Assembly (NCBI RefSeq): GCF_002770725.1
Contig: NZ_NQVN01000001.1
Location: 124,001 to 188,000, forward strand
Length of the DNA stretch: 64,000 nt
From: Pleomorphomonas carboxyditropha
GTDB taxonomy: Bacteria > Pseudomonadota > Alphaproteobacteria > Rhizobiales > Pleomorphomonadaceae
Reading direction: 5' to 3'
The notes beneath the pieces are model-generated. The model was not told the origin of the DNA, did not search any database, and saw only the letters and a program-made list of their open reading frames with translations. Below are positions 24,404-60,691 of this stretch, piece by piece. Every line of letters begins with the position of its first letter. Positions within the stretch are counted from its first letter, which is position 1. A program made the position numbers and the translations under genes.

Positions 24404-24426
24404 TTGCATCGTTCCCGCCGGCGATT
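24404..24426 (+). promoter_or_regulatory. TTGC-N9-GCCGG element, copy A1
   Basis: TTGC, nine bases, then GCCGGCGATT. It begins within AATCTTGCA and ends 43 bases before the next ATG. One of a family found before many prophage genes. Function unknown; promoter or operator suspected. Confidence 0.6.
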
Positions 24427-24469
24427 CACCATGGTTGTGCGGCCCGGGGAGACCGCAGGGGAGAACATC

Positions 24470-24799
24470 ATGACAAAACTCACGAAATCGTCCGACACGA
24501 GCCTCGTCACGTTTGTTGACGGCAACGGCTGTCTGGAAGGCTCTGCGTACGTCGACGAAAACACCGCCGAGCGGCTCGAATGCTATCGCGATCGCAGCCT
24601 GTCCGAGTTGCTTGAAATGCTTGTTCGCGCAGAAGAAAATCTCGCACGGCATCTTGTTCGCTCCGGCTACGATCCCGCGACGATCAAGCGCAACGACATC
24701 GAATGGATGTCTCGTGAGGTCGCGGACGACGGCATCATCGACTACGACGAAGCCGCATATGCGCTCTGGAGCGCGAACGCCCTCGACGCTTCGTGTTGA
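24470..24799 (+). CDS. Small acidic phage protein, unknown
   Basis: A 109-residue acidic protein with no family I recognise. A strand-rich start (TSLVTFVDGNGCLEGSAYVD) leads into helices (LSELLEMLVRAEENLARHL) and an acidic tail. The start follows GGGGAG. It is the only rightward gene of the left arm, preceded by a TTGC-N9-GCCGG element and closed by a strong terminator, so it is a single-gene unit facing away from int. That position fits an early or lysogenic regulator, but no DNA-binding motif is visible. Confidence 0.65.
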   Translation: MTKLTKSSDTSLVTFVDGNGCLEGSAYVDENTAERLECYRDRSLSELLEMLVRAEENLARHLVRSGYDPATIKRNDIEWMSREVADDGIIDYDEAAYALWSANALDASC

Positions 24800-24825
24800 A
24801 CCCTTCGGAAAATCCGAAGAGTTTC

Positions 24826-24861
24826 CTAGGCCGCCGAGATGATCGGCGGCCTAGTTTTTTT
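24826..24861 (+). terminator. Strong rho-independent terminator
   Basis: A perfect 12-bp stem (CTAGGCCGCCGA / TCGGCGGCCTAG) with a 5-base loop is followed by seven Ts. A smaller hairpin (CTTCGG / CCGAAG) precedes it. It separates the rightward gene from the convergent phosphoesterase. Confidence 0.85.
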
Positions 24862-25771
24862 ATAGTTCGACGACAACGGGCCGGAACCTATCGACACTCG
24901 GCTCGATCCCGACGTAGCCGCGCGGATTCGAGATCAGGCGCGTCGTTCCGAGATCGTCGTCGACGCCGTAGTGCGCGTGGCCCCAACACCAGAGATCCGG
25001 CCGCCATGACTCGATTTCGGCGCGCATATCCGAGGCATACGCCGCCGATATCCACTCACCGCTGCTCGACGGCCGGATCGCATCAGGCGTCGGAGCATGA
25101 TGCGTTGCGACCACGATTGCCGAATCCGGATCGTTTGCTCTCACTCGCGCGATCTCATATGCGAGCCACGCACGGCTTACGGAATGCAGCTGGCGAGTGA
25201 TCTCTGGATTCAGCGCTTCACCGCCGTACCGAATGCGTCGGTAGTCCGTCATCGTCGAATTCGCTTCATACATCGACCGCGTGATCGTGCCCTCGGTTTC
25301 ACCGAGCAGCTCGAAATCCGTCCAGAGCGTCGCTCCGAGTACCTGCACGAACCGACCGCGCACCTCGATCTCAGTCGACCGATTTTCGAGAAACCGAACT
25401 CGACCGGCGGACGCGTCGGACAGCTCCCGCATCTCGCGCTGAAAATCGAGGATGTCGGAGCGGTCGTAACACTCATGATTGCCCATCACGACGACCACCG
25501 GCGCGCCGACATACCGCGACACAGCATCAGCATATGCATGCACATGCCTCGTTCCGACATCCGTGTCGCCAGCAAGCACAACGACGTCGCACTCACCGCG
25601 CAGGTCTCCGAGCCACGGTCCGACCACTGGATGACCAGGCTCCCGCCGTCGACGGCGGAGCAGTTCGAGCCACGCACCCGATGGCTGATCCGGACCGCGG
25701 GTCCGTTCAAATTCGTTGTGCAGATCGCTCATCACCGCGATCCGGATTCCTGTGTTCGTCATTTTCGCCAC
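24860..25771 (-). CDS. Calcineurin-like metallophosphoesterase
   Basis: The 303-residue product has the full metallophosphoesterase set: RIAVMSDLHNEF, VVVLAGDTDVG, VVVMGNHECYDR, VVATHHAPTP and CWGHAHYGVD. These residues hold two metal ions. Relatives act on nucleotides, nucleic acids or proteins; the substrate is not visible. It lies 30 bases after a zinc-ribbon gene in a leftward operon. Confidence 0.85.
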   Translation of the reverse strand: MAKMTNTGIRIAVMSDLHNEFERTRGPDQPSGAWLELLRRRRREPGHPVVGPWLGDLRGECDVVVLAGDTDVGTRHVHAYADAVSRYVGAPVVVVMGNHECYDRSDILDFQREMRELSDASAGRVRFLENRSTEIEVRGRFVQVLGATLWTDFELLGETEGTITRSMYEANSTMTDYRRIRYGGEALNPEITRQLHSVSRAWLAYEIARVRANDPDSAIVVATHHAPTPDAIRPSSSGEWISAAYASDMRAEIESWRPDLWCWGHAHYGVDDDLGTTRLISNPRGYVGIEPSVDRFRPVVVEL

Positions 25772-25801
25772 CCGTTCATCAGAGCGGCGTTTTCCGCCGC
25801 G

Positions 25802-26191
25802 TTAATAGTAATTATCAGGCCACTTGAGGTAATGTTTCATGCAACAGCACTTGTACCAGTACGGTTCAGCTTTCGGCAGACGGACTTCACCCGGTTTGCC
25901 GCAGGCTTCGCAAGTAACCAGAGAGTCATTCTCGGCGGTCCTCACGATTTCACGAAGCCTTTCAACCTTCTCTCCGTCATACGAATAGTACGCCCTCAGT
26001 CCGCCAAACTTTTCCTTGATCTGAACGATCCGGTATTCGGCGACATTTGACGCCTTGATCTCCTCGGCGAGGTCCGCGCACATCCGCTCTAGGATCGACC
26101 TCCATCCGTCACCGACGCTCGGAAATCCGCCGTGCCGTAAAAACGGGTATCGGTCGCAAAGCTGTTGACGCCAGTCCTTTTGTTCGGCCAT
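25802..26191 (-). CDS. Zinc-ribbon-like phage protein
   Basis: A 129-residue protein with a middle segment VQIKEKFGGLRAYYSYDGE, a motif seen in many phage hypothetical proteins. A C-terminal cysteine set (CEACGKPGEVRL, then YWYKCCCMKHY) probably binds zinc. The function is unknown. The 26,192-26,438 gap upstream holds its promoter region and the terminator of the next operon. Confidence 0.7.
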   Translation of the reverse strand: MAEQKDWRQQLCDRYPFLRHGGFPSVGDGWRSILERMCADLAEEIKASNVAEYRIVQIKEKFGGLRAYYSYDGEKVERLREIVRTAENDSLVTCEACGKPGEVRLPKAEPYWYKCCCMKHYLKWPDNYY

Positions 26192-26402
26192 TTTCCTGAC
26201 CTTTCGATTTCATAGAGAAGCTAATGTGCGTTCCGTTCTCAACATTCGTATACGATAACCTTTAACTATGGGCTCACGACAACGCTCATATTGCTGGCGT
26301 TTGCCCTTATCCAGCGTTCGAATTCGTACGAGCATTAGGAACAGAATGCGACTTAGCTTCCGTAAGCTTGATGGTTGCCAGCGTTTGCTGGGGTTTTGAT
26401 GG

Positions 26403-26427
26403 TGGCCTCCGATTGCGAGCCGGAGGC
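26403..26427 (-). terminator. Terminator-like hairpin after the FtsH-like gene
   Basis: An 8-bp stem (GGCCTCCG / CGGAGGCC) lies 12 bases after the stop of the leftward AAA+ gene. A second small stem (CCAGC / GCTGG) follows at about 26,379. T runs are weak. Confidence 0.5.
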
Positions 26428-26438
26428 CGTTTAGTGGG

Positions 26439-28460
26439 TTAATGCGTGATCAACCGCAGCCGAAGTTGCCGATCGACGATCTCAGCGATCTCGCTGCCAC
26501 TGACACGGCCGTGCTCAACCAAGCGCTCGGCGATGTCGTCGATGGCGTCGCGATGCTCAGTGACGAGATTGCGAGCGCGAGCAAGGCAGCCTTGCAGGGT
26601 CTCTTCGACGGCCCTGCGTACGTCGGGATGCCGGAGCATCAGTTGAGCGTCGTCCGATAGGAGTCCCACGAGCGTCAATTGCCTGCCGAGGCCGTGCGTA
26701 CCGTGCAGACCGGCAGCAATCGACGTTGCACGGGCGAGGTCGCTTTGCGGATGTCCACCGGATCCGGTGTATCGACGTCCGAGCACGACTTCTTCGGCGG
26801 CGATACCCCCGAGCAGGACCGTGATCTCGTCAATCAGTTGCTCACGCGACAGATTGCCTGGCTGATAGTCCGCTCGCGACAGACCGCCTCCGGGTTGCGC
26901 TTCGACGTCGACGAGCAGCTCGCGAACGATCGAGACATCGACAATCTCCGCCCCGCCGAGGAGCTGAGCGACCACTGCGTGTCCAGCTTCATGAACCGCA
27001 TAAATGCGTGACGCAGCTGCGCTCACCGGCCGAACAGCTGGAAGTTCCGCGGCGATGTCATCGATAGTCACCGCGCGATTGCCGTCACGACGAGCACGAC
27101 GACGAGCTCCCCGACAGGCCTTTTCGAGATCAGCACCAGAGAGTCCGTTCGTCCGGTTTACGAGCGGCGACAGATCGAGATCGTCGGCGACGCCCCTGAG
27201 ATACCAGCGCATGATTGCTACTCGTGCCTCGGCATCCGGCAGGGGAATCCGGATGTGACGGTCGAGACGCCCTGAGCGACGAAGTGCGGGGTCGACGTCG
27301 TCGGGGTAATTCGTCGCTCCGACCACGACGACACCAACGCGCTGCTCGAATCCGTCAACGCACTCAAGCAGCGCGTTGCAGAAATCGTGCATCCAGCGCG
27401 AATTCTTGTCAGTCTCCCCGCGAGTTCCAATCGCGTCGATCTCGTCAATGAACAGCACGCACGGCGCAGACTTTGCGGCGTCGGAAAACGAGCGCTTCAT
27501 TTCGCGAACGCACGGTCCGAAGCTGCCATCGCCCTTTGCTGGGCTCATCCAGTTCGTCACGCTCGTTGCGATCAGCCGAACGCCGGCGCTCTTCGCAAGC
27601 GATCTCGCGAACGTCGTCTTTCCGGAACCCGGAGGGCCGGACAGAAGCGCACCGCGGTCGATCTCGGACCACGGCAACTCTCCGCGACCGTACGCCGCGA
27701 GGTCTTCGATGAGTTGCCGTGCCCACTCACCGGCTTCGCCGAGGCCGTGCATCTCGTCGAGCGTCGGCGTCTCCGACAGGTCCACGGTCGGCACAGCAGC
27801 CGTCGCCGTCTTGAGAATCTCCCTCGCGGCTTCATGCTCCCGGGCGTCGAGTACCGCGATCATGCGTGTGAGAGCGTCACGCAGATACGTGCGCTGCGCC
27901 ATGCACGCGCTCCAAAGCTCAACGTCGCCGCGGTACGCCTCGACGACGTCAGCCGACGTGACGACCGCGCCAAAAACGGAGATCATTGCACCACGCAAAT
28001 GCTCAATGTGCGGACGCTCAGACATCGTGACATCGCCGTCCATCATTGCGCGGACGTCAACGTGCAAGTTGCTGAAATCGTCGAGCTTTCCGACGAAAAT
28101 GATCCTCCGGAAACGTGTCTGCAGACGTTGTAGAGCGCGCAATGCACCGCTACCGCGACGTGAGTCAAACTCTGAGGTCCATCCGCCGTTGTCGACGCCG
28201 ATGACCTTGAAATCAGGAACTCGTCCGACGCGGCTGAGCATCAGCAGCAAATGCACCGCCGAATCCACGGCATACGCCTGCACGTCCATAGCGTCTGGAA
28301 CGACCACGGCGTAGACGCCGCGCCGACCGTAGATCAGAGGGGCAGCAGACGACCGCCGAACATCTCGGCGCAGCATACCGAGCATCGCGAGGGTGCCGAC
28401 GTCCATTGATTCAGCGTCGTCAGCCGTCAGACGGTGACGAGTTTCGACTAGAGTGACCAT
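26439..28460 (-). CDS. Soluble FtsH-like AAA+/M41 metalloprotease
   Basis: The 673-residue protein has an AAA+ domain: Walker A GPPGSGKT (275-282), Walker B LFIDEID (336-342) and the arginine-finger region RRSGRLDRHI (394-403). An M41 peptidase domain follows, with HEAGH (490-494) and a third zinc ligand in HPQSDLARAT. FtsH in bacteria is anchored by two N-terminal membrane helices. Here the first 250 residues are a different, soluble domain with no such helices. It could degrade host or phage regulators in the cytoplasm (inference). It is preceded by a small gene in the same operon. Confidence 0.85.
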   Translation of the reverse strand: MVTLVETRHRLTADDAESMDVGTLAMLGMLRRDVRRSSAAPLIYGRRGVYAVVVPDAMDVQAYAVDSAVHLLLMLSRVGRVPDFKVIGVDNGGWTSEFDSRRGSGALRALQRLQTRFRRIIFVGKLDDFSNLHVDVRAMMDGDVTMSERPHIEHLRGAMISVFGAVVTSADVVEAYRGDVELWSACMAQRTYLRDALTRMIAVLDAREHEAAREILKTATAAVPTVDLSETPTLDEMHGLGEAGEWARQLIEDLAAYGRGELPWSEIDRGALLSGPPGSGKTTFARSLAKSAGVRLIATSVTNWMSPAKGDGSFGPCVREMKRSFSDAAKSAPCVLFIDEIDAIGTRGETDKNSRWMHDFCNALLECVDGFEQRVGVVVVGATNYPDDVDPALRRSGRLDRHIRIPLPDAEARVAIMRWYLRGVADDLDLSPLVNRTNGLSGADLEKACRGARRRARRDGNRAVTIDDIAAELPAVRPVSAAASRIYAVHEAGHAVVAQLLGGAEIVDVSIVRELLVDVEAQPGGGLSRADYQPGNLSREQLIDEITVLLGGIAAEEVVLGRRYTGSGGHPQSDLARATSIAAGLHGTHGLGRQLTLVGLLSDDAQLMLRHPDVRRAVEETLQGCLARARNLVTEHRDAIDDIAERLVEHGRVSGSEIAEIVDRQLRLRLITH

Positions 28461-28508
28461 GACGGTCCTCCCTGTTTTCAGTTGGAAAAATGAGTGCGTG
28501 GGATCAGA

Positions 28509-28853
28509 TCAGCAGATCGCGCGGCCGATGTTTTTGCTGCCGAGCCTGTAGGCTCCCGCGAGTGTCCGGACGACGCCGAGTTTGAGATCTGCGGCGACAA
28601 GCGGCTGCGAGACAAATCGCGCGGCTGTCCCGTCTGGACGCATCAGCCTGCCCACAAGCGCTGGAAACAAGCGGAATTCGGCTGACCAGTCATCGATCAC
28701 TGGAGACATCGCAGCGCATTCGTCACTGACGATCGGCCCTCCGCGTACTACAGCACGTAGTGATGCGGCTGCGATCTCAAGAGCACTCGCGCGCTCAAGA
28801 ATTCGACGGGAGTCTGGAATAGACGGGATGACGCCGGAATTGACGAGATACAT
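28509..28853 (-). CDS. Small protein upstream of the FtsH-like gene, unknown
   Basis: A 114-residue protein with no recognised family; it is mostly helical (ILERASALEIAAASLRAVV) with a basic C-terminus. It is separated from the AAA+ protease gene by 48 bases and probably shares its transcript. It might be a partner or substrate adaptor. A hairpin (TGACC / GGTCA) lies in its leader, about 40-60 bases upstream of the start. Confidence 0.6.
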   Translation of the reverse strand: MYLVNSGVIPSIPDSRRILERASALEIAAASLRAVVRGGPIVSDECAAMSPVIDDWSAEFRLFPALVGRLMRPDGTAARFVSQPLVAADLKLGVVRTLAGAYRLGSKNIGRAIC

Positions 28854-28976
28854 GATAGCGATATCCGGTATTGATCGAATGCGAAAACCTGACCTTTAGG
28901 AGGTCATTTTTTGCTTATTTTCTCGATCAATCCGAACCGCGTAAACATAATTGCTCTCCGAACGTGTTGAGAGCGT

Positions 28977-28999
28977 TATAACCGGCTATAGTTGTGCAA
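28977..28999 (-). promoter_or_regulatory. TTGC-N9-GCCGG element, copy A2
   Basis: On the leftward strand TTGC, nine bases, then GCCGGTTATA. It is about 124 bases before the small gene of the protease operon. The 190-base gap here (28,854-29,043) otherwise shows a hairpin but no gene. Confidence 0.55.
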
Positions 29000-29043
29000 T
29001 CAAGTGACGCCCGGAACTGCAGTTAATGGAACCCTGGTATCAC

Positions 29044-29679
29044 TCAGTCCTCGCGCTTTCCGCGAGCCACTATCTTTAGCGTGCCGTCGGGGAGCGGTCG
29101 TTGTAGCGACTTGGCTTCCGACCATGGGGCACGCAGCCAAACGTTCATTTCGTCGAGGTTAGTCAGGATTACCGGCATCGCTTTCGGGTGTATAGGTGCG
29201 ACCTCGGCGTTCGCGTCGGTCGTCAAGAATCCGTAGAGCTTGTGTTCGCCCTCGATCGGTGCGGATTTCGGACCACGGGTGCCGTGCCATGTGGTCCAAA
29301 TTCCGGCGAACGCGAACAAAGGTCTGTCGTCATTGAGAGCGAACCAGGTCGGGATTTTCTTGGGCTTCGCGTCTTCGTACTCACAGAACGATGTCACCGG
29401 CACGAGACATCTGCTCTCTGGACCGAGCCACCGCCGCCAGTGCGGCGATTGAGTATTGCGGATGTTAGTGATCGGAGGGCCGGCATATTGAGGTGGGGAC
29501 GGCATTCCCCAGCGCATCATGAGAAGCTCCCTGCCATCGGCGCCTTCGCGGACCACTGGTGCGACGTAGTCAGGAAAAATGCCGGGAAATGGCGGCAGGT
29601 TGCCCGTTTGATCGATCATCGCACGCGTGAATTCGCGCACGGCTGTTTGCGATTTTGTCATCGAGTACAAATTGCACAT
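29044..29679 (-). CDS. SRAP-family abasic-site protein (YedK/HMCES type)
   Basis: The 211-residue product starts MCNLYSMT, so Cys2 becomes the N-terminal catalytic residue after Met removal. Further family motifs are [33 protein letters not shown] and [13 protein letters not shown] proteins form a covalent link with abasic sites in single-stranded DNA and protect replication forks. Here the gene follows the replication initiator by 9 bases, in one operon, which points to protection of phage replication (inference). Confidence 0.92.
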
Positions 29680-29688
29680 TCGGTGATC

Positions 29689-31212
29689 TCACAAAGCGTG
29701 ATCTGTCTCGCACTCTATCTCGTCGTCAGGATTGTAGACATAGCCGTCCGGGTTTCCGTCAGCATTGTCGTCGTCGTAGAGCTGCGACCAGTCGACGTCG
29801 TCCGACAGTACGGCGGCGTCGCCGATCTGCTGTGGCGTCGGCTTGTAACCGTCGACGATCTCATTCCGTTTGAGTTGCTCGATCGACGACTGCCGCTGAC
29901 TCTCGCCCCAGGTTCGTCTCGTTGCGTATGCCAGCATCAAGCGCGGCTGCTCAATTTCCGCCCTCGACCAGGCGGCGAATGCGACACGAGCGCCTCGTGT
30001 CTCGATCAAATTCTGGAGTGCAGAACCATAAATGTGTTCGACACTCGGATCCTTGGCGTTTGAAAGCGTTGCGCCGCAATAGGCCTCGTCCAAGGCAAAC
30101 TTCCAAAGCAACGACATCACCGCGAGATTGATGCGTTTCTTGCCGTAAATCTCAGCCTGCATGCGCGCGATGCGACCGAGATCCGGCGCAGTCGGGAACC
30201 GATAGTTCGGATGTATCGGATCGATGTCGTGCATTGCGTGGATGGCGATCGCGGCGAGTTCGCGCTTGCAGTTGTCTCGTTCCGGAATGCCGGGATTGAT
30301 CTCGGGCTCAAGCAGCGGATCGTAGTGAACAGCGAACCGAACGGCTGCGATCGGAGCCCCGCGGCCCTTGCCGCGGACTTCGGACCACTCCGTTATCGAC
30401 AGTCTTCGAGAGGCCTCGGCGATGCCTTCGATCGCGGGGATCAGCGTGCGGCGTTTCAATTGTCCGTAGCCGTCGCTAGACCCGAGAACGTCCGCCAGCT
30501 CGTCAACTGGGACGTCAATTGTAACGTCGCCTCCGGAAACGTTTATTGGCCGATACGACGCGAGGAGCGAATAGAGCCGTCCGGCAAACTTGCTCCTGAA
30601 TCTCGGCCAGGCGGCGAGCTCGACATAGCTGTAGTCAGCATACGAGCCGAGAATATCGCGGAGTTTCGCCGGAATCTGAAACCTGACATATTTTTGGCCA
30701 GTCCTGCGGTTGATCTCGACATAGCACAGCACAATGGGCATCACGCCGAGACGCTTGAAATAGTCCGTGTCGACGTCGAATGAGATCATCGTGCGCGCCA
30801 ACCGCTTCACGCTGTCAACGAGCCGCCTGTCGTCGCTGATGTTGAGATAGCGCATCGCGATGTCGAACGGCAGTTTGTGTGCATCGTCATCGAGTTCGCG
30901 GCCGTGAGCTTCATCGTCACGGTGCTGCGTGATCATGAGATGCCACAATGCTTGATCCTGCGCCGTCAGGTTATCCGGCGGCTCGACTCTCATGCGTTGA
31001 AGAATGAGCCGCTGCACCGGCGTCGTCGGAGACTGCGCGGCCATCTCTGCGTCGTCCGACAGCGCCTTAGGCAGCGATGCCGCATGTACCCGGAGCTTAT
31101 ATCGACGCTGACGCTGAGCGAGCGTGTCGAGGCTGCGACTACGAACGTAGACATTGCTCGATCTCGTATCGTTCGTAGCGCGTGTCGATGATGATTGTGT
31201 GCTGCGTGTCAT
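29689..31212 (-). CDS. Replication initiator, Rep_3/RepA-like
   Basis: The 507-residue protein has the double winged-helix plan of plasmid Rep_3 initiators. Visible parts are RYLNISDDRRLVDSVKRLAR, YVRFQIPAKLRDILGSYADY and SKFAGRLYSLLASYRP, then a second winged domain (VDELADVLGSSDGYGQLKRR). An acidic tail follows. Such proteins bind iterons and open the origin. The gene faces a 900-bp gap with direct repeats. No helicase gene is visible in the window, so host DnaB is presumably recruited. The family call is from pattern and moderate. Confidence 0.65.
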   Translation of the reverse strand: MTRSTQSSSTRATNDTRSSNVYVRSRSLDTLAQRQRRYKLRVHAASLPKALSDDAEMAAQSPTTPVQRLILQRMRVEPPDNLTAQDQALWHLMITQHRDDEAHGRELDDDAHKLPFDIAMRYLNISDDRRLVDSVKRLARTMISFDVDTDYFKRLGVMPIVLCYVEINRRTGQKYVRFQIPAKLRDILGSYADYSYVELAAWPRFRSKFAGRLYSLLASYRPINVSGGDVTIDVPVDELADVLGSSDGYGQLKRRTLIPAIEGIAEASRRLSITEWSEVRGKGRGAPIAAVRFAVHYDPLLEPEINPGIPERDNCKRELAAIAIHAMHDIDPIHPNYRFPTAPDLGRIARMQAEIYGKKRINLAVMSLLWKFALDEAYCGATLSNAKDPSVEHIYGSALQNLIETRGARVAFAAWSRAEIEQPRLMLAYATRRTWGESQRQSSIEQLKRNEIVDGYKPTPQQIGDAAVLSDDVDWSQLYDDDNADGNPDGYVYNPDDEIECETDHAL

Positions 31213-31240
31213 GTTCTCTCCCCGACCGAGAACAATGCTT

Positions 31241-31263
31241 GATCACCGGCGGGGATGAAGCAA
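31241..31263 (-). promoter_or_regulatory. TTGC-N9-GCCGG element, copy A3
   Basis: On the leftward strand TTGC, nine bases, then GCCGGTGATC, ending 28 bases before the ATG of the replication initiator. Spacing and sequence match the rightward copies. Confidence 0.6.
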
Positions 31264-31290
31264 CACGCCGACACGCGTTCTGATGTCAGA

Positions 31291-31580
31291 TTCGTCAAAG
31301 TGTCATGAAATCGTTTTTTGACGAGAGCAGACGCTGACTGGACATTAATCGGTTTAGGCAAGACCAACTTTGATTGCCCATTCTATAGAAATATCAGGAC
31401 CCAATGACCGTCACGACGAACGACCTCCGAACCGGTGCCAGTTTCGTCAACTTGTCACCGAAACATTTGTTGACGACGACAGACTACGTCTGGAAATTAA
31501 ACGATTTAGGTTAGGCCCGTCTCGATTGCCCATTCTATAGTAATCTAGACGACCTCTGTCCGTCGTCACGACGACACCCC
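31291..31580. repeat. 152-bp imperfect tandem repeat, candidate origin
   Basis: Two units start at 31,291 and 31,443. Shared blocks hold the same 152-base offset: TTCGTCAA, TTGACGA (31,318 and 31,470), CTGGA-ATTAA, TTTAGG, and the exact GATTGCCCATTCTATAG (31,372 and 31,524). The segment lies in the 900-bp gene-free gap upstream of the initiator gene. It may be a replication origin or a duplicated promoter. Confidence 0.7.
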
Positions 31581-31939
31581 AGAAACCTTCAACTTCCCGC
31601 CGAACCCGAAGCGCATCTGGACCGAGATTATATCCCGATGTCCGCTATCTGAATCTGGCATCAGTCGTCATGCGCCGCAGAGCCGGGGTCGTCGCTGCGC
31701 TCCTCGTGGAGAGTGAAACATAAGCCGTCGAGAAACCCCGACCGTCGAGCTAAACGAGATTCAGACCTCCCGCCTATCCGCATCCGCTCTCCCAAAGTCC
31801 CCAGATGTCGATGACCCCAAAAGGGAATGGCATCCGCGAACGCTATGCGCCGCAAGAACAGCTAGGGGGCGCTGTCCACATTTTTGGCCTGCGTGCTTTC
31901 AGATGAAAACCCCAGCATTTGCCATGCAGATTAGTTCGG

Positions 31940-31974
31940 ATTCCGAAATGATATGCTTCGAATTTCGAAATGAT
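31940..31974. repeat. 22-bp iteron-like pair
   Basis: ATTCCGAAATGAT (31,940) and ATTTCGAAATGAT (31,962) are 22 bases apart, two helical turns, the usual iteron spacing for Rep_3 initiators. A weaker third unit may precede them. The surrounding DNA is AT-rich. Small opposing frames in 31,661-32,088 are not supported as genes. Confidence 0.45.
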
Positions 31975-32027
31975 TTCAGCCTGTTGACGTGTTCGGCGTG
32001 ACGGATGGTCTGGTTTTATTTTTCGTA

Positions 32028-32043
32028 GTCGGACATGTCCGAC
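32028..32043. promoter_or_regulatory. 16-bp palindrome, copy 1
   Basis: GTCGGACATGTCCGAC is perfectly symmetric and lies 70 bases before the first gene of the rightward arm. The identical 16-mer recurs at 38,288-38,303. A repressor site is the simplest reading. Confidence 0.6.
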
Positions 32044-32062
32044 AATAGTTCTTGAAATGGTG

Positions 32063-32085
32063 TTGTGGGGAGTCCGCCGGCGATT
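32063..32085 (+). promoter_or_regulatory. TTGC-N9-GCCGG element, copy A4 (TTGT variant)
   Basis: TTGT, nine bases, then GCCGGCGATT, ending 27 bases before the ATG at 32,113. The right half matches copies A1 and A5 over ten bases. Confidence 0.5.
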
Positions 32086-32112
32086 CATGCTCGGAGTCGG
32101 GGAGGAGCCGAC

Positions 32113-32427
32113 ATGACGACTGTCAGAGAGATGACCGACGACGAACGCAGAGCTTACGACCGTGAGAAGCGGCGGGCGCTGAGGCTGAAAAGAAAGGCCG
32201 AGAAGGCGTCCGGACGGCTCAACGACGACGAGGCGACGATCAGGGAGGTATTGGCTGATGCGGCTCTCGTGGTCCTGCGTGCTGGCGGTACGGATCCGGC
32301 TGCGGTGGCGCTGGCCAATCTTGTTCGTGGGGCGTTTCTGGATCGGCCGGGGATGTTCATGTGCGGAGTTGGCGCGACGCTGGCACAGAGAAAGATGAAG
32401 CCGAAAGTCCTCAGCGCGAGGCGGTGA
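32113..32427 (+). CDS. Small phage protein, unknown
   Basis: A 104-residue protein with a charged N-terminal helix (MTDDERRAYDREKRRALRLK) and a hydrophobic middle (VLADAALVVLRAGGTDPAAV). No family is recognised. A GGGGAGGAG ribosome site precedes the ATG. It is the first rightward gene after the putative origin and is followed 61 bases later by another small basic protein. Confidence 0.7.
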   Translation: MTTVREMTDDERRAYDREKRRALRLKRKAEKASGRLNDDEATIREVLADAALVVLRAGGTDPAAVALANLVRGAFLDRPGMFMCGVGATLAQRKMKPKVLSARR

Positions 32428-32488
32428 GAGCCGTGGGGGCCGTACCGAATAAGTTCGGTACGACGGCAGGGAGCGGCGGGAGGACGGA

Positions 32489-32824
32489 ATGGCACGGAGA
32501 TCGACACGAACTAAAACGGCGGAGAGGACGGCGAGATACCGTCAGCGTCTCGCTGAGAGGCATGTGCCGGAAGCCGCGGCGGTTGATGCCGCCATTCTGT
32601 CGGCGCTTGCGGTCGAGGCTCGTGCTGCGGCGGAAAAAGCGGTCGCAGTCGACGTGTCTGAATCTGATCGAGCCGTCGGTGAACTTATCGTCCGGATCAT
32701 GACGACGGCCGCGACTAACTTGTCTACCTTGGGCTTCGATCACACGGCGTCGGCGCTACGCGTTAAGCGCAGATTGCGTAGACCACCAAAGCGTCGCGAA
32801 GCGTCACGAGTCTCCGCACAGTGA
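32489..32824 (+). CDS. Small basic phage protein, unknown
   Basis: A 111-residue protein starting with a strongly basic segment (ARRSTRTKTAERTARYRQRL), followed by an alanine-rich helix and a basic tail. The N-terminus resembles that of several short phage proteins thought to bind nucleic acid, but no domain can be named. It ends at a convergent hairpin. Confidence 0.65.
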   Translation: MARRSTRTKTAERTARYRQRLAERHVPEAAAVDAAILSALAVEARAAAEKAVAVDVSESDRAVGELIVRIMTTAATNLSTLGFDHTASALRVKRRLRRPPKRREASRVSAQ

Positions 32825-32850
32825 GTTGCTGATCTACCCCCGTTACTTCA

Positions 32851-32888
32851 GTGACGACGACATGCTCGACATCACGGCTCGTCGTCAC
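32851..32888. terminator. Hairpin between convergent genes
   Basis: GTGACGACGA (32,851-32,860) pairs with TCGTCGTCAC (32,879-32,888). It separates the rightward gene ending at 32,824 from the leftward gene ending at 32,904. No T run is present. Confidence 0.5.
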
Positions 32889-32903
32889 GTCGTGACAACG
32901 ACT

Positions 32904-33251
32904 TCATGCCACGTCCTCTGCGTCATCGTCGCTAGATCCCACAACGCGCAACTGTCCTGACTCGCCAGGCGGCGGCAATTGAACGATTGCGTTTCCCTCG
33001 TATAAGCTTTTGATCTTATTCGCAATTCCGAGACAGGTGAAACACGGAGTCGTGCATCGTTTCGGGTCTCTGCACACAGCCATGGCGACCTCATTGCGAT
33101 GCGGCTGAGTTGCATATGCCCGGAGCGCGGCGACGACGACGAACGCAGTTTCGGGAGTCAGTTTCGCGATCTGGTCCGCTCGGGCCTTCTTCCCCAGCAG
33201 TTCGATCAGATCTTGAATGCAGCGATGTAGCCTACGCGACGAGTCACTCAT
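32904..33251 (-). CDS. Cysteine-cluster phage protein, unknown
   Basis: A 115-residue protein with an N-terminal helical half and a cysteine group VCRDPKRCTTPCFTCLG that could bind one zinc. The acidic end (SSDDDAEDVA) suggests protein contacts. The family is unknown. ATG 33,251 is preferred; the longer frame from 33,458 overlaps the divergent gene and its leader element. Confidence 0.65.
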   Translation of the reverse strand: MSDSSRRLHRCIQDLIELLGKKARADQIAKLTPETAFVVVAALRAYATQPHRNEVAMAVCRDPKRCTTPCFTCLGIANKIKSLYEGNAIVQLPPPGESGQLRVVGSSDDDAEDVA

Positions 33252-33308
33252 GATGTTCGTGTTATGTTCTCGCAATGCGATACATGCAAGAGACAGAATC
33301 TGACAGTG

Positions 33309-33344
33309 GTAGCCTCTGCCGGCGGTTTGATCGATGCCGAAGGC
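33309..33344 (+). promoter_or_regulatory. GCCGGCG element, class B copy 1
   Basis: GTAGCCTCT then GCCGGCGGTT then TGATCGATGCCGAAGGC. It shares the GCCGG core with the A copies, and the following TTG-n-TCGATGC block with the copies at 37,750 and 62,781. It ends 44 bases before the chosen ATG at 33,388. Confidence 0.5.
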
Positions 33345-33387
33345 GATGACCAGAATATGGATTGGAGATTTAAGGCGGGGCGTGGAA

Positions 33388-34050
33388 ATGGCGACGACAA
33401 CACCAGCAGATAATGTAAGCCTGTCGGCCTGGGTGTCGTTTTTACGCGAGAAAGTCACGCAACTTGAGAGTTCGGGTGGCGGTTCCGGATCGACAATTTC
33501 CGCGAATGACTGGGCCGACCTGCTTGCGTTTGTGAAGTCTCTGTACGTGTCTCTCTATTCAGTCGAGGTCGGAAGCCCAGTTTTCTCGAACATGACACTC
33601 GCCAGCCTGAAAATTTTCGGCGGCGCGAACCGTGCAACCGATTTTCGGATAAACGTCGGGCATAGCGGAGACTCATACGCTGTCCCGGCCGCGTGGTATC
33701 TATTCGGTGACGTGGGGCCGATTGGGGCCAATTCCGGCAACAAAAACATCAGCTTGCTCGGCCATGCGTTCGGTGGTGAGTACTACTCGTCTGGAACGCT
33801 GACGTCGGTGCAGTCGTTCGTCGATTTCAACGGCGACACACTCAACAACTCAAGTCACTATTTCGCGTACGTCGTATCTATCGTCAGAAAAGATCAAGAT
33901 ACCACGAACAACAACGTAACGGCTCTCGGCACGCGAGTGACGACGGCCGAGTCGACGGTCGCGGGATATAACGCCCGCATTGCTGCGCTTGAATTAAAAG
34001 TCGCCGCGCTTGAGGCTTGGAAGGCGACCGTGATCACGCAGATCGATTAA
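33388..34050 (+). CDS. Virion-like protein with C-terminal coiled coil
   Basis: A 220-residue protein. The N-terminus is helical (NVSLSAWVSFLREKVTQLES), then a glycine/serine hinge and a beta-rich middle with SGTLTSVQSFVDFNGDTLNN. The end is a coiled coil (IAALELKVAALEAWKATV). This plan is typical of phage fibre or appendage proteins, yet the gene lies in the early region. No family is recognised. ATG 33,388 is chosen because the ATG at 33,334 falls inside a repeated leader element. Confidence 0.6.
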   Translation: MATTTPADNVSLSAWVSFLREKVTQLESSGGGSGSTISANDWADLLAFVKSLYVSLYSVEVGSPVFSNMTLASLKIFGGANRATDFRINVGHSGDSYAVPAAWYLFGDVGPIGANSGNKNISLLGHAFGGEYYSSGTLTSVQSFVDFNGDTLNNSSHYFAYVVSIVRKDQDTTNNNVTALGTRVTTAESTVAGYNARIAALELKVAALEAWKATVITQID

Positions 34051-34092
34051 TGTCTCAACTACGTCAACAATCACCCAGACTGATGTGACGTC

Positions 34093-34887
34093 ATGAAACT
34101 CTCCGCAAAAACCTCCGAACGCGGACTATCTGGACTCGCATCGAGCGTGCGATCGACGATCGTCAGCGTCGCGCGGCACGCGATCGACGAGATCGCGTTT
34201 GACGCACAGCGAGAGCTAAAATCTGAGGTCGATCGAGTTTTCGACCGTCCCGTCAAATTCACTCAAAGCGCATTTCGCGTCGACAAAGCGAAGGACAACG
34301 GCGACGGCACGGTGTCAGGCCGGGTTTACATCCAGCCGATTCAGAGTGCGTATCTGCGGCGCGAAATCGAAGGCGGCATCAACCGCGTCGGCGATCCCGG
34401 CTCTGGTCCGCACTCTCTCATCGTCTACTCGCTCAAGCGCTCGTCCGCCGGCGGCGTCCCTCGGCGGGAGACCCGACGCTTGTCCGATATGCTCCGCAAG
34501 GAGATGAGCGAACGCGAGGAACTCCGTCGCGCTCGGGAAGTGCTGAGGTCTCGGCGCCTGGCCGGAGAGCATGTCACACACGATGAGTATGTCGCGGCGA
34601 GCTGGCCGGGACGACACGGAAAAAAGCAGGGCTTGTTCTTTGGCGGGCTAGGCGGCGTGCTTGGCTACTGGCGTCGTCCGGATCGTCGTGTCGTCAAATC
34701 GAAGCGGCGCGGAAGCCGCATGTCGACTGCCGCTGGAGCGTCGAAAGCGCCCGAATTGCTGCTTCAGTTCAAGCGCGAGACCAAGCCGTACCGCCCGATT
34801 TTCCGCTACGACCGCGTCGTCATCAGAGCCGGCAACAGGCTTCCGCTCGAAGTCCAAAAGAAGCTCCGGAGAGCCCTACAGAAGTAA
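34093..34887 (+). CDS. Phage minor structural-like protein
   Basis: A 264-residue basic protein. The segments FDRPVKFTQSAFRVDKAKDN, VYIQPIQSAYLRREIEGG and FRYDRVVIRAGNRLPLEVQK resemble phage neck or minor tail (gpZ/gp10-like) proteins, where the same FT-x-x-A-hydrophobic and YL-x-x-x-IEGG patterns occur. It follows the previous gene by 42 bases. Both virion-like genes are far from the main late operon. The last 12 bases overlap the end of the convergent gene. Confidence 0.6.
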   Translation: MKLSAKTSERGLSGLASSVRSTIVSVARHAIDEIAFDAQRELKSEVDRVFDRPVKFTQSAFRVDKAKDNGDGTVSGRVYIQPIQSAYLRREIEGGINRVGDPGSGPHSLIVYSLKRSSAGGVPRRETRRLSDMLRKEMSEREELRRAREVLRSRRLAGEHVTHDEYVAASWPGRHGKKQGLFFGGLGGVLGYWRRPDRRVVKSKRRGSRMSTAAGASKAPELLLQFKRETKPYRPIFRYDRVVIRAGNRLPLEVQKKLRRALQK

Positions 34888-35604
34888 AACTCGTAGTACC
34901 ATTTCGACTGTGTTGATGGCGTCTTCGACATCAGCTCTTACGACAGGACCGGGATTATGCGCACCGGCACTCAACTTTTGATGTTGGACGTCGAGGAGTT
35001 CGCCGGCTTTCAAGGCTATGGATAGGTCGGTCTCCGACATTCCACGGCTCCGTTTCATAATCGCATACTTGTAGCGCTGCTTCCTTGTGATGAGAGTTGG
35101 CTTGTTTTTGTCAGCTACGAACCATGGCTGAGACCTCACCTCGTCGTCAGGACTCACAACGTGTAGCACCTGTGACACGAGTTCTCTCGCGGAATGCGCA
35201 GCCTGCCTCATCGCGTCTGGTGTTGCAGAGTTCAGCGCTATCAGCGCACCGCGGCGAGCCGAAACAAACTCATGCGACAACTTCCACAGTGCGGCATCGA
35301 GTTCGTCTAGTGCACCGCGCTTCAATGCGTCGCGCCCCTCTGCGGTGATCACTCTCCACTCTTCCGGGCTAACCAAATCCGAGTATGTCGGCACGACAAG
35401 TCCGCGAGCCATCAGCTCGGCAGCGCACCGCATCGCTTGAGCACGCTCCTCGACGCTGAATGACTCGCAGCCAAGCGAACGCTCCAAATCCGATTGTGAG
35501 TACCCTTTACCGACGATGTTGCCGAGCGCCAGCTGACGGTCCGAACGAGCGTAAATGTCTAGTATCGCCATCATGATTTGGTAGTCGGTAAAGTGCGTCG
35601 TCAT
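34876..35604 (-). CDS. Possible defence-related protein (pPIWI-associated nuclease-like C-terminus)
   Basis: A 242-residue protein. The middle (EFVSARRGALIALNSATPDA, then MRQAAHSARELVSQVLHVVSPDDEV) resembles a helical domain that I recall as the predicted pPIWI-associating nuclease or abortive-infection type. The N-terminal part looks like a winged helix (TAEGRDALKRGALDELDAAL region). The assignment is from pattern memory and is weak. It is leftward, isolated, and faces a broken gene across a promoter region. Confidence 0.5.
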   Translation of the reverse strand: MTTHFTDYQIMMAILDIYARSDRQLALGNIVGKGYSQSDLERSLGCESFSVEERAQAMRCAAELMARGLVVPTYSDLVSPEEWRVITAEGRDALKRGALDELDAALWKLSHEFVSARRGALIALNSATPDAMRQAAHSARELVSQVLHVVSPDDEVRSQPWFVADKNKPTLITRKQRYKYAIMKRSRGMSETDLSIALKAGELLDVQHQKLSAGAHNPGPVVRADVEDAINTVEMVLRVLLL

Positions 35605-35657
35605 GCTGGCCTCCACTGAGTCCGCCGACGCTAGCCGCAAACCTAGTCAACCGCAAT

Positions 35658-35680
35658 TTGCACCATGCTCGCCGGCGATT
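35658..35680 (+). promoter_or_regulatory. TTGC-N9-GCCGG element, copy A5
   Basis: TTGC, nine bases, then GCCGGCGATT, followed by CATCATCC. It ends 24 bases before ATG 35,705, the closest spacing of the family. Confidence 0.6.
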
Positions 35681-35704
35681 CATCATCCCGCTGGGAGGTG
35701 ACTC

Positions 35705-36178
35705 ATGACGACATCGACATCGACGCAACCGGCACACGCTACCGCGGCTCTGCCCCTCGCATTCGATTTCCGCGATGGCGCCCGCCTGCGCAACTACGTC
35801 AAGATGTTGCTCAAACTCTGCAGAGCCCGCCGTCTGCCGGCGGTTTTCGAAGACGTCGTCGACGACGCGCAACGGTGCCTGGACTGGCGCATCGGAGACG
35901 CCCCAGATGCCGTCGAAACAGCCGCGAGGCTTTAACATCTGGCAGACTGCGCCCTCGCACACTGGTGCCTGGGCAAATCCGCGAGCGGTCTCTCGGACAA
36001 TCAGCTCCGCGTTCTCTCCGACGGATTCCGCGCACTGTCTGTGGCTCTCGTGCTGCACAGCACCAGAGTTCCGACGTTCTATTATGTTGCGCCCGGAGAG
36101 GCCTGGTGGCTGCCGGATAATGTCGCGGATGTCGACTGGCCGGACGACGACGGCGAGTTTCAAGGCGACCTCGACTGA
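35705..36178 (+). pseudogene. Small phage gene with an in-frame TAA
   Basis: The frame from ATG 35,705 (GGGAGG ribosome site) stops at TAA 35,933-35,935 after 76 residues, ending ETAARL. In the same frame it continues without another stop for 80 codons (HLADCALAHWCLGKSASG, then FYYVAPGEAWWLPDN, then an acidic end) to TGA 36,176. The second part is coding-like and lacks a good start of its own, so one 157-codon gene seems to carry a nonsense codon. A sequencing error, true decay or readthrough are the options. Function unknown. Confidence 0.6.
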
Positions 36179-36192
36179 ACGTCGCAGAAATC

Positions 36193-36218
36193 AAAACGGC
36201 CCCCGATTGGAGGCCGTT
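36193..36218 (-). terminator. Terminator between convergent genes
   Basis: AACGGCC and GGCCGTT form a 7-bp stem. On the leftward strand it is followed by TTTTGATTTC, so it mainly stops the HTH gene that ends at 36,240. Confidence 0.65.
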
Positions 36219-36239
36219 GTGGCTGATATTACCGTGAAC

Positions 36240-36953: not shown

Positions 36954-37044
36954 TCGTCCCCTCCATTTTATATTGTTCCGGATCGCTCTTGCTGGCTCTC
37001 CTAGATGCGGTCGGCGCGTGTCGGCCGCATGTGAGCAGAGTCAG

Positions 37045-37509
37045 TTACGCACTCAGTTTTGAGACCGGTTTGCAGCTAGCGACGAGTTCATTGATAAGAC
37101 GCTGTCTGTGTATCGGCATCATCGCATTACGCCCGGCAGACTGTAGTCTCGAAATAAGCGAGTGATCCAAACCATCAATAATTTGTAATGCTTTGTAAGT
37201 ATTGTGACCGCTCATATTGTAGGCGCTTGATATTACGCCTAAATCCTCGCGCGACAAATCAACCAGAAAATTATGATTATTTGATACAATCAATTCAACG
37301 GAATAACGAACGTCTTCATAAAAGCGGCAGAAATTTGTATTAATCTTCGACTTATATTTAAGTCCGTCAGACTCTATATATACTCTAATTTTCTCATCGG
37401 TCTCATCTCTAGTTCCTAGCCAAATATCCATGTCTCGGCTGTCAATCTCTTTTGCGCAAGCTTCAAATAGATTATTCGACCGTTCAATCGACTGTTCAAT
37501 GGTTGTCAT
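37045..37509 (-). CDS. Hypothetical phage protein
   Basis: A 154-residue protein, mostly helical, with a central segment YSVELIVSNNHNFLVDLSRE. No family is recognised. It is notably AT-rich for this genome and adjoins the HTH regulator in the same direction with a 91-base gap, so both may be lysogenic or acquired genes. A ribosome site GGGAGAGG precedes the ATG. Confidence 0.6.
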   Translation of the reverse strand: MTTIEQSIERSNNLFEACAKEIDSRDMDIWLGTRDETDEKIRVYIESDGLKYKSKINTNFCRFYEDVRYSVELIVSNNHNFLVDLSREDLGVISSAYNMSGHNTYKALQIIDGLDHSLISRLQSAGRNAMMPIHRQRLINELVASCKPVSKLSA

Positions 37510-37785: not shown

Positions 37786-37815
37786 GGGGGCAGCATGATC
37801 TGACGGGAGGGACGC

Positions 37816-38195: not shown

Positions 38196-38198
38196 ATG

Positions 38199-58981: not shown

Positions 58982-58982
58982 T

Positions 58983-59822
58983 TCAAACCTCGACGGAATT
59001 GTTTCGTTTCATCGCATCGACGCCTTCTGCCGCGGCGTTCGCGCCCATGACGGCCTGATGCCCCTCGATCGGCATCGAAAACGGCAGATCGTGATACGCT
59101 GCCGGCTGGAGCGTCGCGTCGACGCCGAGATGATATGCGATGCCGGCGGACAAGCCCGTCGACGCCGCGGCGACCAGCGCATTCCCGCGCGACACCAGAA
59201 CGTCCCAGATCGGATCGCGATCTTCCGGCAATTTATCGGCGATCGTGCAGACCAGATCTATAAACCCGAGACACAGTGTCTCAACGACGAGGCCACTCAG
59301 TATGGAATGCGTGAGTAGCGAGCGGTGATGTCCGATTCCGAGTTGAAAATCGAGGTCGGGGATTCCGCCATTTCCGTCCAGTCCGCCGGATCCGGTCAAG
59401 AATCCGAAGGTCAACATCATGAGTTGAGGCGCGGTCTCTGCCGGATTGCGGTAGAGCGCAGTCGCTATCGTCGCCGTCGATCTCCCGATGCGAGATGCGA
59501 CCGACATCGACCTGTGCATAGCGAGAGCGGACCGATCTCGGACGTGACTTCGAACGTCTTTCGCCCGGATCGCAGTTACAGCTAGACGAGCTTCTTCGAC
59601 CGAGAACGTGCCGACGGCCGCAATCAATGACGAGAGATTTCGCACCCGGCGGACGCCGCAAAATACACACCGTCGCCCAAGCCGGACGCCCCATCTCGCG
59701 TAGACCCGCCTGTCGGTCTTCCGCAGCGCCTCAACGAGTTCGCTCTGTAGTCGCAATGCACGTAATCGCCCAGGCGACATCGTCGATATCGCCACTGGAT
59801 TCAACTCTGCTTCGATGTCCAT
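58983..59822 (-). CDS. YdjM-like membrane protein, putative metal hydrolase
   Basis: A 279-residue protein. The segment GGIPDLDFQLGIGHHRSLLT followed by HSIL has the PD-D and HR-x-x-TH motifs of the YdjM (PF04307) inner-membrane hydrolase family. Hydrophobic stretches follow (ILSGLVVETLCLGFIDLV). An N-terminal CVFCGVRRVRNL could bind zinc. The exact role is unknown. It lies one base upstream of the ClpP-like gene. Confidence 0.6.
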   Translation of the reverse strand: MDIEAELNPVAISTMSPGRLRALRLQSELVEALRKTDRRVYARWGVRLGRRCVFCGVRRVRNLSSLIAAVGTFSVEEARLAVTAIRAKDVRSHVRDRSALAMHRSMSVASRIGRSTATIATALYRNPAETAPQLMMLTFGFLTGSGGLDGNGGIPDLDFQLGIGHHRSLLTHSILSGLVVETLCLGFIDLVCTIADKLPEDRDPIWDVLVSRGNALVAAASTGLSAGIAYHLGVDATLQPAAYHDLPFSMPIEGHQAVMGANAAAEGVDAMKRNNSVEV

Positions 59823-59934
59823 TTCCCGCCCCGAAGTACCTCAGCACAAACTATGCGTGCGCGGTGACGGCGGCAACACGAATCCAGCGAGTCCGCGTTT
59901 GTCGCAATACGACGGGCAGTTTGAAGAGCCAGCC

Positions 59935-60237
59935 TTAATCTAAACCGTACATTTTCCTGACGGCCTCGTTAACAGCCCCCGAAATGCGCATAAGCATTTG
60001 GTCGTCGAGAGCCCTAATGGCTTCAGTCTCCACAAAATTTAGACCTAGCCTCTCAGGAAGAGTGTCGACCTCCTCTGCTATTATATGCATCATTTCATCG
60101 AGCGCCTCTTCCACATACTCAGGCCTAACGAATTCCTCGGTGAATTCCGTCATATCTGGCTTTTTCCCAGCCAGTGCGGCCCCGAATTTCTCGAAAAGCA
60201 TTGCTTTCGTCTTTTCTCTCGACATCACACTAGTCAT
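59935..60237 (-). CDS. Small acidic helical protein of the cassette
   Basis: A 100-residue acidic protein (EKTKAMLFEKFGAALAGKKP, FVRPEYVEEALDEMMHIIAE) with no recognised family. The ATG at 60,237 follows GGGG at nine bases; ATG 60,246 and a GTG at 60,279 are in frame upstream. It is first in the leftward cassette, 112 bases before the YdjM-like gene. Confidence 0.6.
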   Translation of the reverse strand: MTSVMSREKTKAMLFEKFGAALAGKKPDMTEFTEEFVRPEYVEEALDEMMHIIAEEVDTLPERLGLNFVETEAIRALDDQMLMRISGAVNEAVRKMYGLD

Positions 60238-60321
60238 TGCGATCATCCCCAATCTTGAATCTTGCGCCGCCGACAACACACCATTGCTCTGACAACAGAT
60301 TTTGCCTGCCGGAGCCGAGGA

Positions 60322-60588
60322 ATGCCGAACGATGTATCATTAACTGAGCTTGCGGTCAGCATAGCCGAAATCAAATCGAACGTCGCATACATGAAGGAAA
60401 AGCTCGACAAAGCTGAGTATAAAGCCGATGCGGTTGAACCGCGGTTGCGAGACATTGAGACAAAGATACTCGTAAGTGAAAGCCGCTCATCACTGCTGAA
60501 AGCGCTATCAAATCCATTCGTTAATATCGGTACAAGCGTCTTCGCTGCAGTATCCGCAGTTTATTTTAAAGCAAGACTCGGATTCTAA
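60322..60588 (+). CDS. XhlA-like membrane protein
   Basis: An 88-residue protein with an N-terminal coiled coil (SLTELAVSIAEIKSNVAYMK, then EPRLRDIETKIL) and one C-terminal transmembrane helix (IGTSVFAAVSAVYF). That is the layout of XhlA-type proteins, which anchor lysis functions at the membrane. It is divergent from the leftward cassette. The ribosome site GCCGAGG overlaps a partial GCCGG core. Confidence 0.6.
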   Translation: MPNDVSLTELAVSIAEIKSNVAYMKEKLDKAEYKADAVEPRLRDIETKILVSESRSSLLKALSNPFVNIGTSVFAAVSAVYFKARLGF

Positions 60589-60668
60589 ATGCCGCCGTTT
60601 ACGCGCTCCCGTAAACAGATTTTGCGAAAATTCTCGAACGATATCAATATTTTATCGCCGCTGAAATC

Positions 60669-60691
60669 TTGCATAATTTCCGCCGGTGAAA
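60669..60691 (+). promoter_or_regulatory. TTGC-N9-GCCGG element, copy A6
   Basis: AAATCTTGC, then nine bases, then GCCGGTGAAA. It ends 34 bases before ATG 60,726. With copy A1 it shares AAATCTTGCAT at the left. Confidence 0.6.

Follow-up and report, generated by a model that had tools for sequence, protein, structure and literature searches.

Dispersed sets of promoters and operators in temperate phages have been worked out in detail mostly in mycobacteriophages and enterobacterial phages. The nearest described system that we found is the ESAS of cluster K mycobacteriophages: in the consulted sections of the reports on phage Adephagia, seven intergenic ESAS copies each carry a putative SigA-type promoter with 17-18 bp spacing, the regulator being unknown (PMC11373665; PMC3203893), and the SAS linked to the ESAS lies, by the consulted part of a further report, mostly outside the structural module (PMC12699233). 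Here, we analyze a 64,000-nucleotide stretch of the Pleomorphomonas carboxyditropha genome (assembly GCF_002770725.1, contig NZ_NQVN01000001.1, positions 124,001 to 188,000 of the forward strand; hereafter the window), in which a prophage carries a repeated element, TTGY-N9-GCCGG, before genes on both strands. We lean toward the view that six or seven of its copies are related promoters, scattered over the genome of a single temperate phage.

Results

Copies of the element and their promoter register

An initial inspection of the letters (the sequence-only reading) had reported six copies with exactly nine bases between TTGY and GCCGG. All are present in the window (24,404+, 28,999-, 31,263-, 32,063+ with TTGT, 35,658+ and 60,669+), and each points toward its own gene, the next one along, on either strand. 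A seventh copy, carrying TTT instead of TTG, was found past the window end in the same prophage. With the first T of the element numbered 0, an A at column 24 together with a T at column 28 (A24/T28) corresponds to A2/T6 of a -10 hexamer placed exactly 17 bp after a TTGCAT-like -35; the copies, with distances counted from the first T to the start codon of the downstream open reading frame (ORF), are as follows.

Copy 1: 24404..24432, + strand; -35 TTGCAT, spacer CGTTCCCGCCGGCGATT, -10 CACCAT; 66 bp before ATG 24470 (+ strand) of a 109-amino-acid protein of unassigned function.
Copy 2 (weak): 28971..28999 (pattern 28,982-28,999), - strand; -35 TTGCAC, spacer AACTATAGCCGGTTATA; A2/T6 hexamer absent at 17 bp but present at 16 bp; 51 bp before a 14-codon ORF, then the gene run 28509-28853, FtsH-like, phosphoesterase.
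Copy 3: 31235..31263 (pattern 31,246-31,263), - strand; -35 TTGCTT, spacer CATCCCCGCCGGTGATC, -10 AAGCAT; 51 bp before ATG 31212 of a Rep3-like replication initiator.
Copy 4: 32063..32091, + strand; -35 TTGTGG, spacer GGAGTCCGCCGGCGATT, -10 CATGCT; 50 bp before ATG 32113 of a 104-amino-acid basic protein.
Copy 5: 35658..35686, + strand; -35 TTGCAC, spacer CATGCTCGCCGGCGATT, -10 CATCAT; 47 bp before ATG 35705 of a 76-amino-acid ORF, overlapped by a GTG-started 140-amino-acid ORF in another frame.
Copy 6: 60669..60697, + strand; -35 TTGCAT, spacer AATTTCCGCCGGTGAAA, -10 AGAGAA (GAGAAT with an 18-bp spacer); 57 bp before ATG 60726 of a DNA-transfer-protein homologue, the endolysin gene coming next at 62855.
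Copy 7, beyond the window end: window coordinate 69,692 (L049:5692), + strand; TTTC..CGCCGGCGATC, full form TTTCATGAGAACCGCCGGCGATC; 72 bp before the ATG of a 127-amino-acid ORF.

The seven prophage copies thus stand 47-72 bp before their start codons, the distance of 28,999 being counted to the 14-codon ORF; that the copies lie upstream of gene starts had been noted before, and the range of 24-125 bases then given tightens to 47, 50, 51, 51, 57 and 66 bp for the six in the window. For some of the genes, alternative starts are present upstream or downstream. Copies 3 and 4 are divergent and 800 bp apart. The YGATT said mostly to follow GCCGG does so in three of the six window copies, a fourth having TGATC.

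Across ten sites (the seven prophage copies and three from relatives, described below), the conserved columns are 0-5 (TTGCAY), 7-8, 11-20 (CCGCCGGYGA), 24 (A, 8/10) and 28 (T, 8/10). A24 occurs together with T28 in eight of these sites, A2/T6 at spacers of 12-16 or 18-22 bp is found in 0-2 of the ten, and letter shuffles of the flanks at the fixed 17-bp register never reached eight in 20,000 trials. The prophage copies alone give five of seven and the six window copies four of six; the latter had been chosen without columns 24 and 28, and columns +26 to +28 selected no site. As a control, A24/T28 was found in one of 15 pattern matches outside the set (four from the same genome, L001-L004; ten from IMG/VR, L010-L019, of which L010 and L011 are the same sequence; and L021, from genome G018). 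In the three closest copies, positions +25..+27 vary (CCA, TGC, TCA) and the T at +28 is constant. The two exceptions fit other spacers (16 bp at 28,999 and 18 bp at 60,669), such that a sigma-70-type pairing of a TTG -35 with an A2/T6 -10 at 16-18 bp is found throughout, one copy having TTT for TTG.

The sequence-only reading had doubted a plain sigma-70 promoter, a doubt that the 17-bp register in eight of ten sites does not uphold. Its ground was that transcription from the 35,658 copy would begin inside the ribosome site; the position was nearly right, the predicted start (+35) giving a 12-nt leader that begins at GGGAGG, at the edge of the ribosome site, and as an objection it falls away, such a leader being short but possible. 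The other prophage leaders are predicted to span 15-37 nt. The register inclines us, with some reserve, to regard the element as a promoter that holds GCCGGYGATT as a conserved block in its spacer.

Further features adjoin individual copies. Behind copy 2, the 14-codon ORF (28890-28948, - strand) has a ribosome site and terminates at a short hairpin lying in front of the following gene, a hairpin that our scan listed with its T run on the + strand; a leader peptide or a small RNA is conceivable here. Just before copy 1 (24240-24404), inspection by eye showed a large palindrome, TTTGTAATTTGCAA-C-TTGCAAATTACAAA, along with a further inverted repeat of 10 bp; these are possible operators between an excisionase-like gene and the copy. 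Two degenerate stretches between two genes of the right arm were left uncounted: one at L049 ~3790 (- strand) scores 12.5 bits and has an extra base in the block, and the other, at 3744 (+ strand), was spotted by eye.

Occurrence in the prophage and in background sequence

The bare pattern TTGY-N9-GCCGG matches the window seven times, one match (16,383+) being host DNA and outside the set, against a shuffle mean of 1.74, and one of 100 shuffles reached seven. With TTGY-N9-GCCGGYGA and at most one mismatch, 11 window matches compare with a shuffle mean of 2.45, and none of 100 shuffles gave as many. In the whole genome (5,884,991 bp) the exact form of this longer pattern occurs 16 times, with five occurrences inside the prophage, which makes up 0.8% of the genome. 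Four of the 11 matches outside the prophage were checked (L001-L004), and these lie in open frames of 369-856 codons without A24/T28; the prophage copies themselves sit in stop-free frames of 31-232 codons.

A 26-column matrix, trained on the six window sites that it scored, gave these 24.7-33.6 bits and the next window match 17.5. With a 29-column position weight matrix, trained on the seven prophage copies and the three from relatives, the prophage copies score 19.2-36.2 bits and the best host rows (in 200 kb) 16.6 and 16.0; together with the genome-wide count, this agrees with the restriction to the prophage and the low host density that the sequence-only reading had anticipated. In leave-one-out scoring, the prophage copies reach 33.3, 31.9, 27.1, 16.8, 15.8, 14.6 and 6.0 bits. 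Of the 16 top-scoring rows of the prophage scan, no row that falls between 36,000 and 60,600 exceeds 12.3 bits; this region holds the genes for terminase, portal and capsid and most of those for the tail. The repeats are genuine and cluster in the prophage.

Copies in relatives and wider searches

Homologues of the Rep initiator behind copy 3 were found at E <1e-8 in two of 396 other genomes of the order, those of Chenggangzhangella methanolivorans (28-34% identity by stretch) and Faunimonas pinastri (26%), and, with Rep as a profile, in three of 384 other genomes in the class sample. In Chenggangzhangella, TTGATCCGTTCCCGCCGGCC stands 75 bp before the rep start (13.3 bits by the six-window-site matrix) and TTGCACCGTTCTCGCC stands 75 bp before a divergent ORF (15.3 bits), 770 bp from the rep copy—the layout of copies 3 and 4 here. 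In Faunimonas, TTGCATGATGTCGTCGGCC lies 50 bp before rep and scores 12.5 bits by the same matrix; over 564,388 bases this matrix gives 28 rows that exceed 12 bits, a part of them duplicated or from motif-selected loci. Chenggangzhangella also shares homologues of 25802-26191 and of the phosphoesterase, and Faunimonas those of the phosphoesterase and, weakly, the methyltransferase. By position, orientation and layout we judge these copies convincing as genuine ones.

At the Chenggangzhangella locus (L048:2495-2800), in a record where the rep frame is broken, iteron-like repeats occur in either orientation, and an inverted repeat of 14 bp, the arms of which resemble the iterons, lies over the position where the rep transcript is predicted to start. 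Like this repeat, those at 60,669 (9 bp) and 31,263 (7 bp) lie over or adjoin the predicted start. The Chenggangzhangella arms suggest gene-specific operators, with Rep autorepression there, on top of the shared promoter.

Among more remote Rep homologues (L063-L068), none of the three best rows of each would in our judgement be placed before rep; the rows of 19.3 bits in L066 and 14.8 bits in L064 occupy homologous positions, past the rep match and in antisense orientation. The DNA-transfer protein has relatives in three of the 396 genomes (G015, G139, G142), and their loci (L035-L043) contain one row above 12 bits by the six-site matrix (L035, 13.0), with no row above 13.0 bits in G015 by the ten-site matrix.

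Searches of IMG/VR by motif returned stretches that we do not regard as relatives. TTGY-N9-CGCCGGYGATTCA matched ten, two of them identical in sequence; each lies within a stop-free frame (126-3502 codons) and none has A24/T28; a stop-free frame is weak evidence against a site, the prophage copies being in such frames too. A search with TTGCAYCRTTCYCGCCGG gave ten stretches, one of them this prophage, while the remaining nine fall in open frames that run for 81-588 codons. Of these nine, five reach 19-21 bits by the six-site matrix, as expected from pattern selection, and two (L129 and L133) lie 42 bp before an ATG with A24 but no T28, single in their loci of 12.7 and 12.5 kb. In the family (20 genomes) one other match appeared, in G018, single and in a 734-codon open frame though with A24/T28. 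Across the order (377 genomes), TTGC-N7-YCGCCGGYGAT occurs in 91, and three matches within 12 kb are found only in the P. carboxyditropha genome; order-wide matches far outnumber the reversed-pattern control, an excess that we suspect is due to codon usage.

Points against a promoter set and alternative explanations

Several observations weigh against reading the copies as a set of related promoters. Copies 2 and 6 have no A24/T28 at 17 bp, and hexamers such as CACCAT, CATCAT, CATGCT, AAGCAT and TACGCT are poor by consensus; a standard sigma-70 scan (at least 9/12 of TTGACA/TATAAT) listed none of the five sites in 24,000-39,400, so that these, if promoters, would be weak ones by that consensus. 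A24 lies inside the matrix that picked the relatives' copies and copy 7, leaving T28 as the fully independent column there, and three of the copies closely resemble one another. The leave-one-out score of copy 2 (6.0 bits) is at background, and this copy may be a chance match. The relatives' copies, when left out, score 16.6, 16.7 and 14.1 bits, no better than the best host rows, and are outscored by the antisense 19.3-bit row in L066. Few lineages carry relatives at all, none of the three relatives' copies has the YCGCCGGYGA block, and Rep and the phosphoesterase are the sole proteins common to the three elements, such that no regulator is tied to the block. Nor is a purely early gene set supported: 2 kb behind copy 4 there is a homologue of a minor tail protein (34093-34887), and behind copy 6 the DNA-transfer gene is followed by that for endolysin (62855-63451).

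The alternative that survives best, which we nonetheless hold to be unlikely, makes the copies binding sites of an immunity repressor—operators in promoter spacers, or stoperators acting on elongation—with the likeness to -35 and -10 elements secondary. Asymmetric sites oriented with transcription are known in L5-like phages, by the consulted part of PMC9283540, and the block forms a near-dyad, YCGCC|GGYGA, in six of the seven prophage copies, though in none of the three from relatives. The same part of that source describes stoperators in short intergenic spaces, whereas here all copies lie 47-72 bp before a start codon, most of them in promoter register. The 13-bp L5-type consensus, GGTGGMTGTCAAG, has three window matches within 2 mismatches, none at a site, and among the best rows of the prophage scan no copy lies near the regulator-like genes at 36.2-37.8 kb. 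The stoperators entertained by the sequence-only reading become less likely on the distances, the register and the lack of a site matching that consensus.

The poor -10 hexamers and the GC-rich conserved block would also suit a phage-encoded or alternative sigma factor, or an activator, reading the sites in place of the main sigma factor, an explanation that we consider improbable: a 17-bp register with A2/T6 is the main-sigma rule, and no sigma-factor family match exceeded the cut-off among the prophage proteins scanned (a subset of ORFs, some mostly against PHROGs only). A weak Sigma70_r4_2 match (E 0.035, below cut-off) falls in 36240-36953, the predicted structure of which has a mean predicted local distance difference test (pLDDT) score of 61.9.

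Control of the ribosome site by a transcript fold or a bound protein, in an RNA leader, is very improbable and is unsupported as a feature common to all copies. A 9-bp stem that surrounds the ribosome site at 60669 (0/1000 shuffles) and a 7-bp stem at 31263 (0.003) beat shuffles, but stems in the other five of the seven prophage copies do not beat shuffles at 0.05, and ten of 12 folds for the six window leaders are ordinary. The predicted start moreover falls inside or after the 5' arms, so that the repeats may instead act as operators in the DNA, like those suggested for Chenggangzhangella rep. We likewise give little credence to a spacer-reading regulon in which a single factor would recognise GCCGGYGATT between the -35 and the -10 and set all of these promoters jointly, and a prophage C5 methyltransferase would methylate CCGG in every copy, lysogeny or re-infection thereby becoming an epigenetic state; CCGG is present in all seven prophage copies, in six of them by definition of the pattern.

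Cell-cycle promoters of the GcrA/CcrM type, activated by methylated GANTC in the spacer, are more doubtful still. The consulted part of PMC7987155 describes GcrA as an activator binding methylated GANTC sites in promoters, and GATTC does occupy +19..+23 in three copies (24404, 32063, 35658); however, GANTC is missing there from four of seven prophage copies and from all three in relatives, the extended YGAKTCK motif is found at none of the ten sites (plain GANTC in three), and the prophage holds GANTC at the expected density (181 versus 183). Mobile or duplicated sequence without function, for which GCCGGCGATTCA, common to three copies, might speak, can be all but set aside, the similarity not extending beyond a stretch of promoter size ahead of gene starts, and relatives having diverged forms at the same place.

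The prophage and its genes

The prophage spans 48,633 bp (22500-71132 in window coordinates) and is bounded by a 56-bp tRNA-Lys repeat, the second copy of which, at 71,077-71,132, fixes its ends. A tyrosine integrase adjoins the tRNA-Lys, which is the sole match of an RNA family scan. An IMG/VR contig, 2834985777_000001 (47,494 bp), covers most of the prophage; phage and plasmid collections held no near DNA match for 24,000-48,000, and for Rep the phage collection gave no match and the plasmid collection one remote match. Features relevant to the copies are listed here.

22500..22555: left attachment repeat, the 3' half of tRNA-Lys, with an exact second copy at 71077-71132, beyond the window end.
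26439-28460, - strand: FtsH-like AAA + M41 protease gene, behind the rep region and weak copy 2.
29689..31212, - strand: Rep3-type replication initiator, behind copy 3 (Rep3_N, E 1.3e-6).
31303..31555, + strand: a diverged pair of ~110-bp direct repeats, in the interval that separates copy 3 (rep) from copy 4 (the divergent gene).
60726..62657, + strand: DNA transfer protein homologue, behind copy 6 (phrog_1745, E 5.4e-139).

An SRAP protein gene comes after the Rep3-type initiator. The ~110-bp repeats share an exact 17-mer (31372 and 31524) and align with a score of 114, where 300 shuffles reached 45.5 at most; they are perhaps a candidate phage replication origin. From 39 to 58 kb the prophage carries its terminase, portal, capsid, major tail and tape-measure genes, and no copy stands directly before this main virion block, rep and several genes of unassigned function being those behind copies. 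Copies and virion genes are not fully separated. In T5 the DNA-transfer protein belongs to the early proteins, a timing that we do not carry over to this prophage.

The right arm contains a C5 cytosine methyltransferase (L049:1213-2565) and a ROS/MUCR regulator (L049:6442-6873), as well as a protein at L049:5764-6144; proteins of HTH type are encoded at 23859-24113 and 36240-36953. On the - strand, 34876-35604 encodes a predicted pPIWI-associating nuclease domain protein (pP_pnuc_1, E 9e-26), perhaps a prophage-borne defence gene. In the host, GANTC occurs at about one third of expectation (1.2 per kb in the 200 kb of L050-L059, versus 3.7 per kb in the prophage).

Discussion

We propose that the copies would be read by the RNA polymerase of the host, carrying its main sigma factor, with TTGCAY serving as a -35 and CANSMT-like hexamers, 17 bp downstream, as a weak -10, and that transcripts would start 12-37 nt before each prophage gene; the register is observed, and the RNA starts are predicted from it. 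The GCCGGYGATT block would then occupy the part of the spacer next to the -10. A weak -10 with an adjoining conserved block would be expected if something else helped or hindered polymerase there, most likely one candidate regulator contacting the block at all of the promoters: either a phage repressor that would silence the genes in the lysogen, or a factor that would compensate for the poor -10. The outcome would be joint control of scattered genes on both strands, the replication gene included, apart from the main virion block. The copies are thus probably a prophage-specific, promoter-like set, a co-regulated promoter class. A single recognition event for all copies and the strand rule, as the sequence-only reading had argued, are supported, and its interpretation overall partly so.

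As far as our searches reach, what is new is the sequence of the element and the place of its conserved block, and not the principle; the motif was not found in the literature searched, which does not in itself make it unpublished. If the reading is true, it would provide an independent alphaproteobacterial prophage case with the conserved part in the spacer and a weak -10, supply seven naturally varying sites with which to identify the reader of a promoter spacer, and mark genes of unassigned function as likely to be expressed together in the prophage.

The rep promoters of Rep3 and other iteron plasmids are subject to autorepression through inverted repeats, and the Chenggangzhangella rep promoter, followed by a 14-bp inverted repeat resembling iterons, is alike in this; the shared element, in contrast, is not itself the iteron and stands before other genes too. 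The stoperators and operators of cluster A phages (L5, TipsytheTRex) are, in the consulted part of their description, likewise many asymmetric, transcription-oriented sites spread across a temperate phage genome (PMC9283540), but they differ in sequence from the element here, with its narrow start-codon distances and, in most copies, fixed -35/-10 register. The ESAS consists of 17-bp imperfect inverted repeats, often beside a 13-bp SAS at the start codon. For an inverted repeat of this type our sites reach at best 8-11 of 17 matches, none of the ten beating shuffles (fractions 0.11-0.99), and the SAS, GGGATAGGAGCCC, has two window matches within 2 mismatches (9,468 and 30,347), neither at a site. 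Lacking both, the element is not a member of the ESAS; it works alike, and carries its extra conservation inside the promoter spacer.

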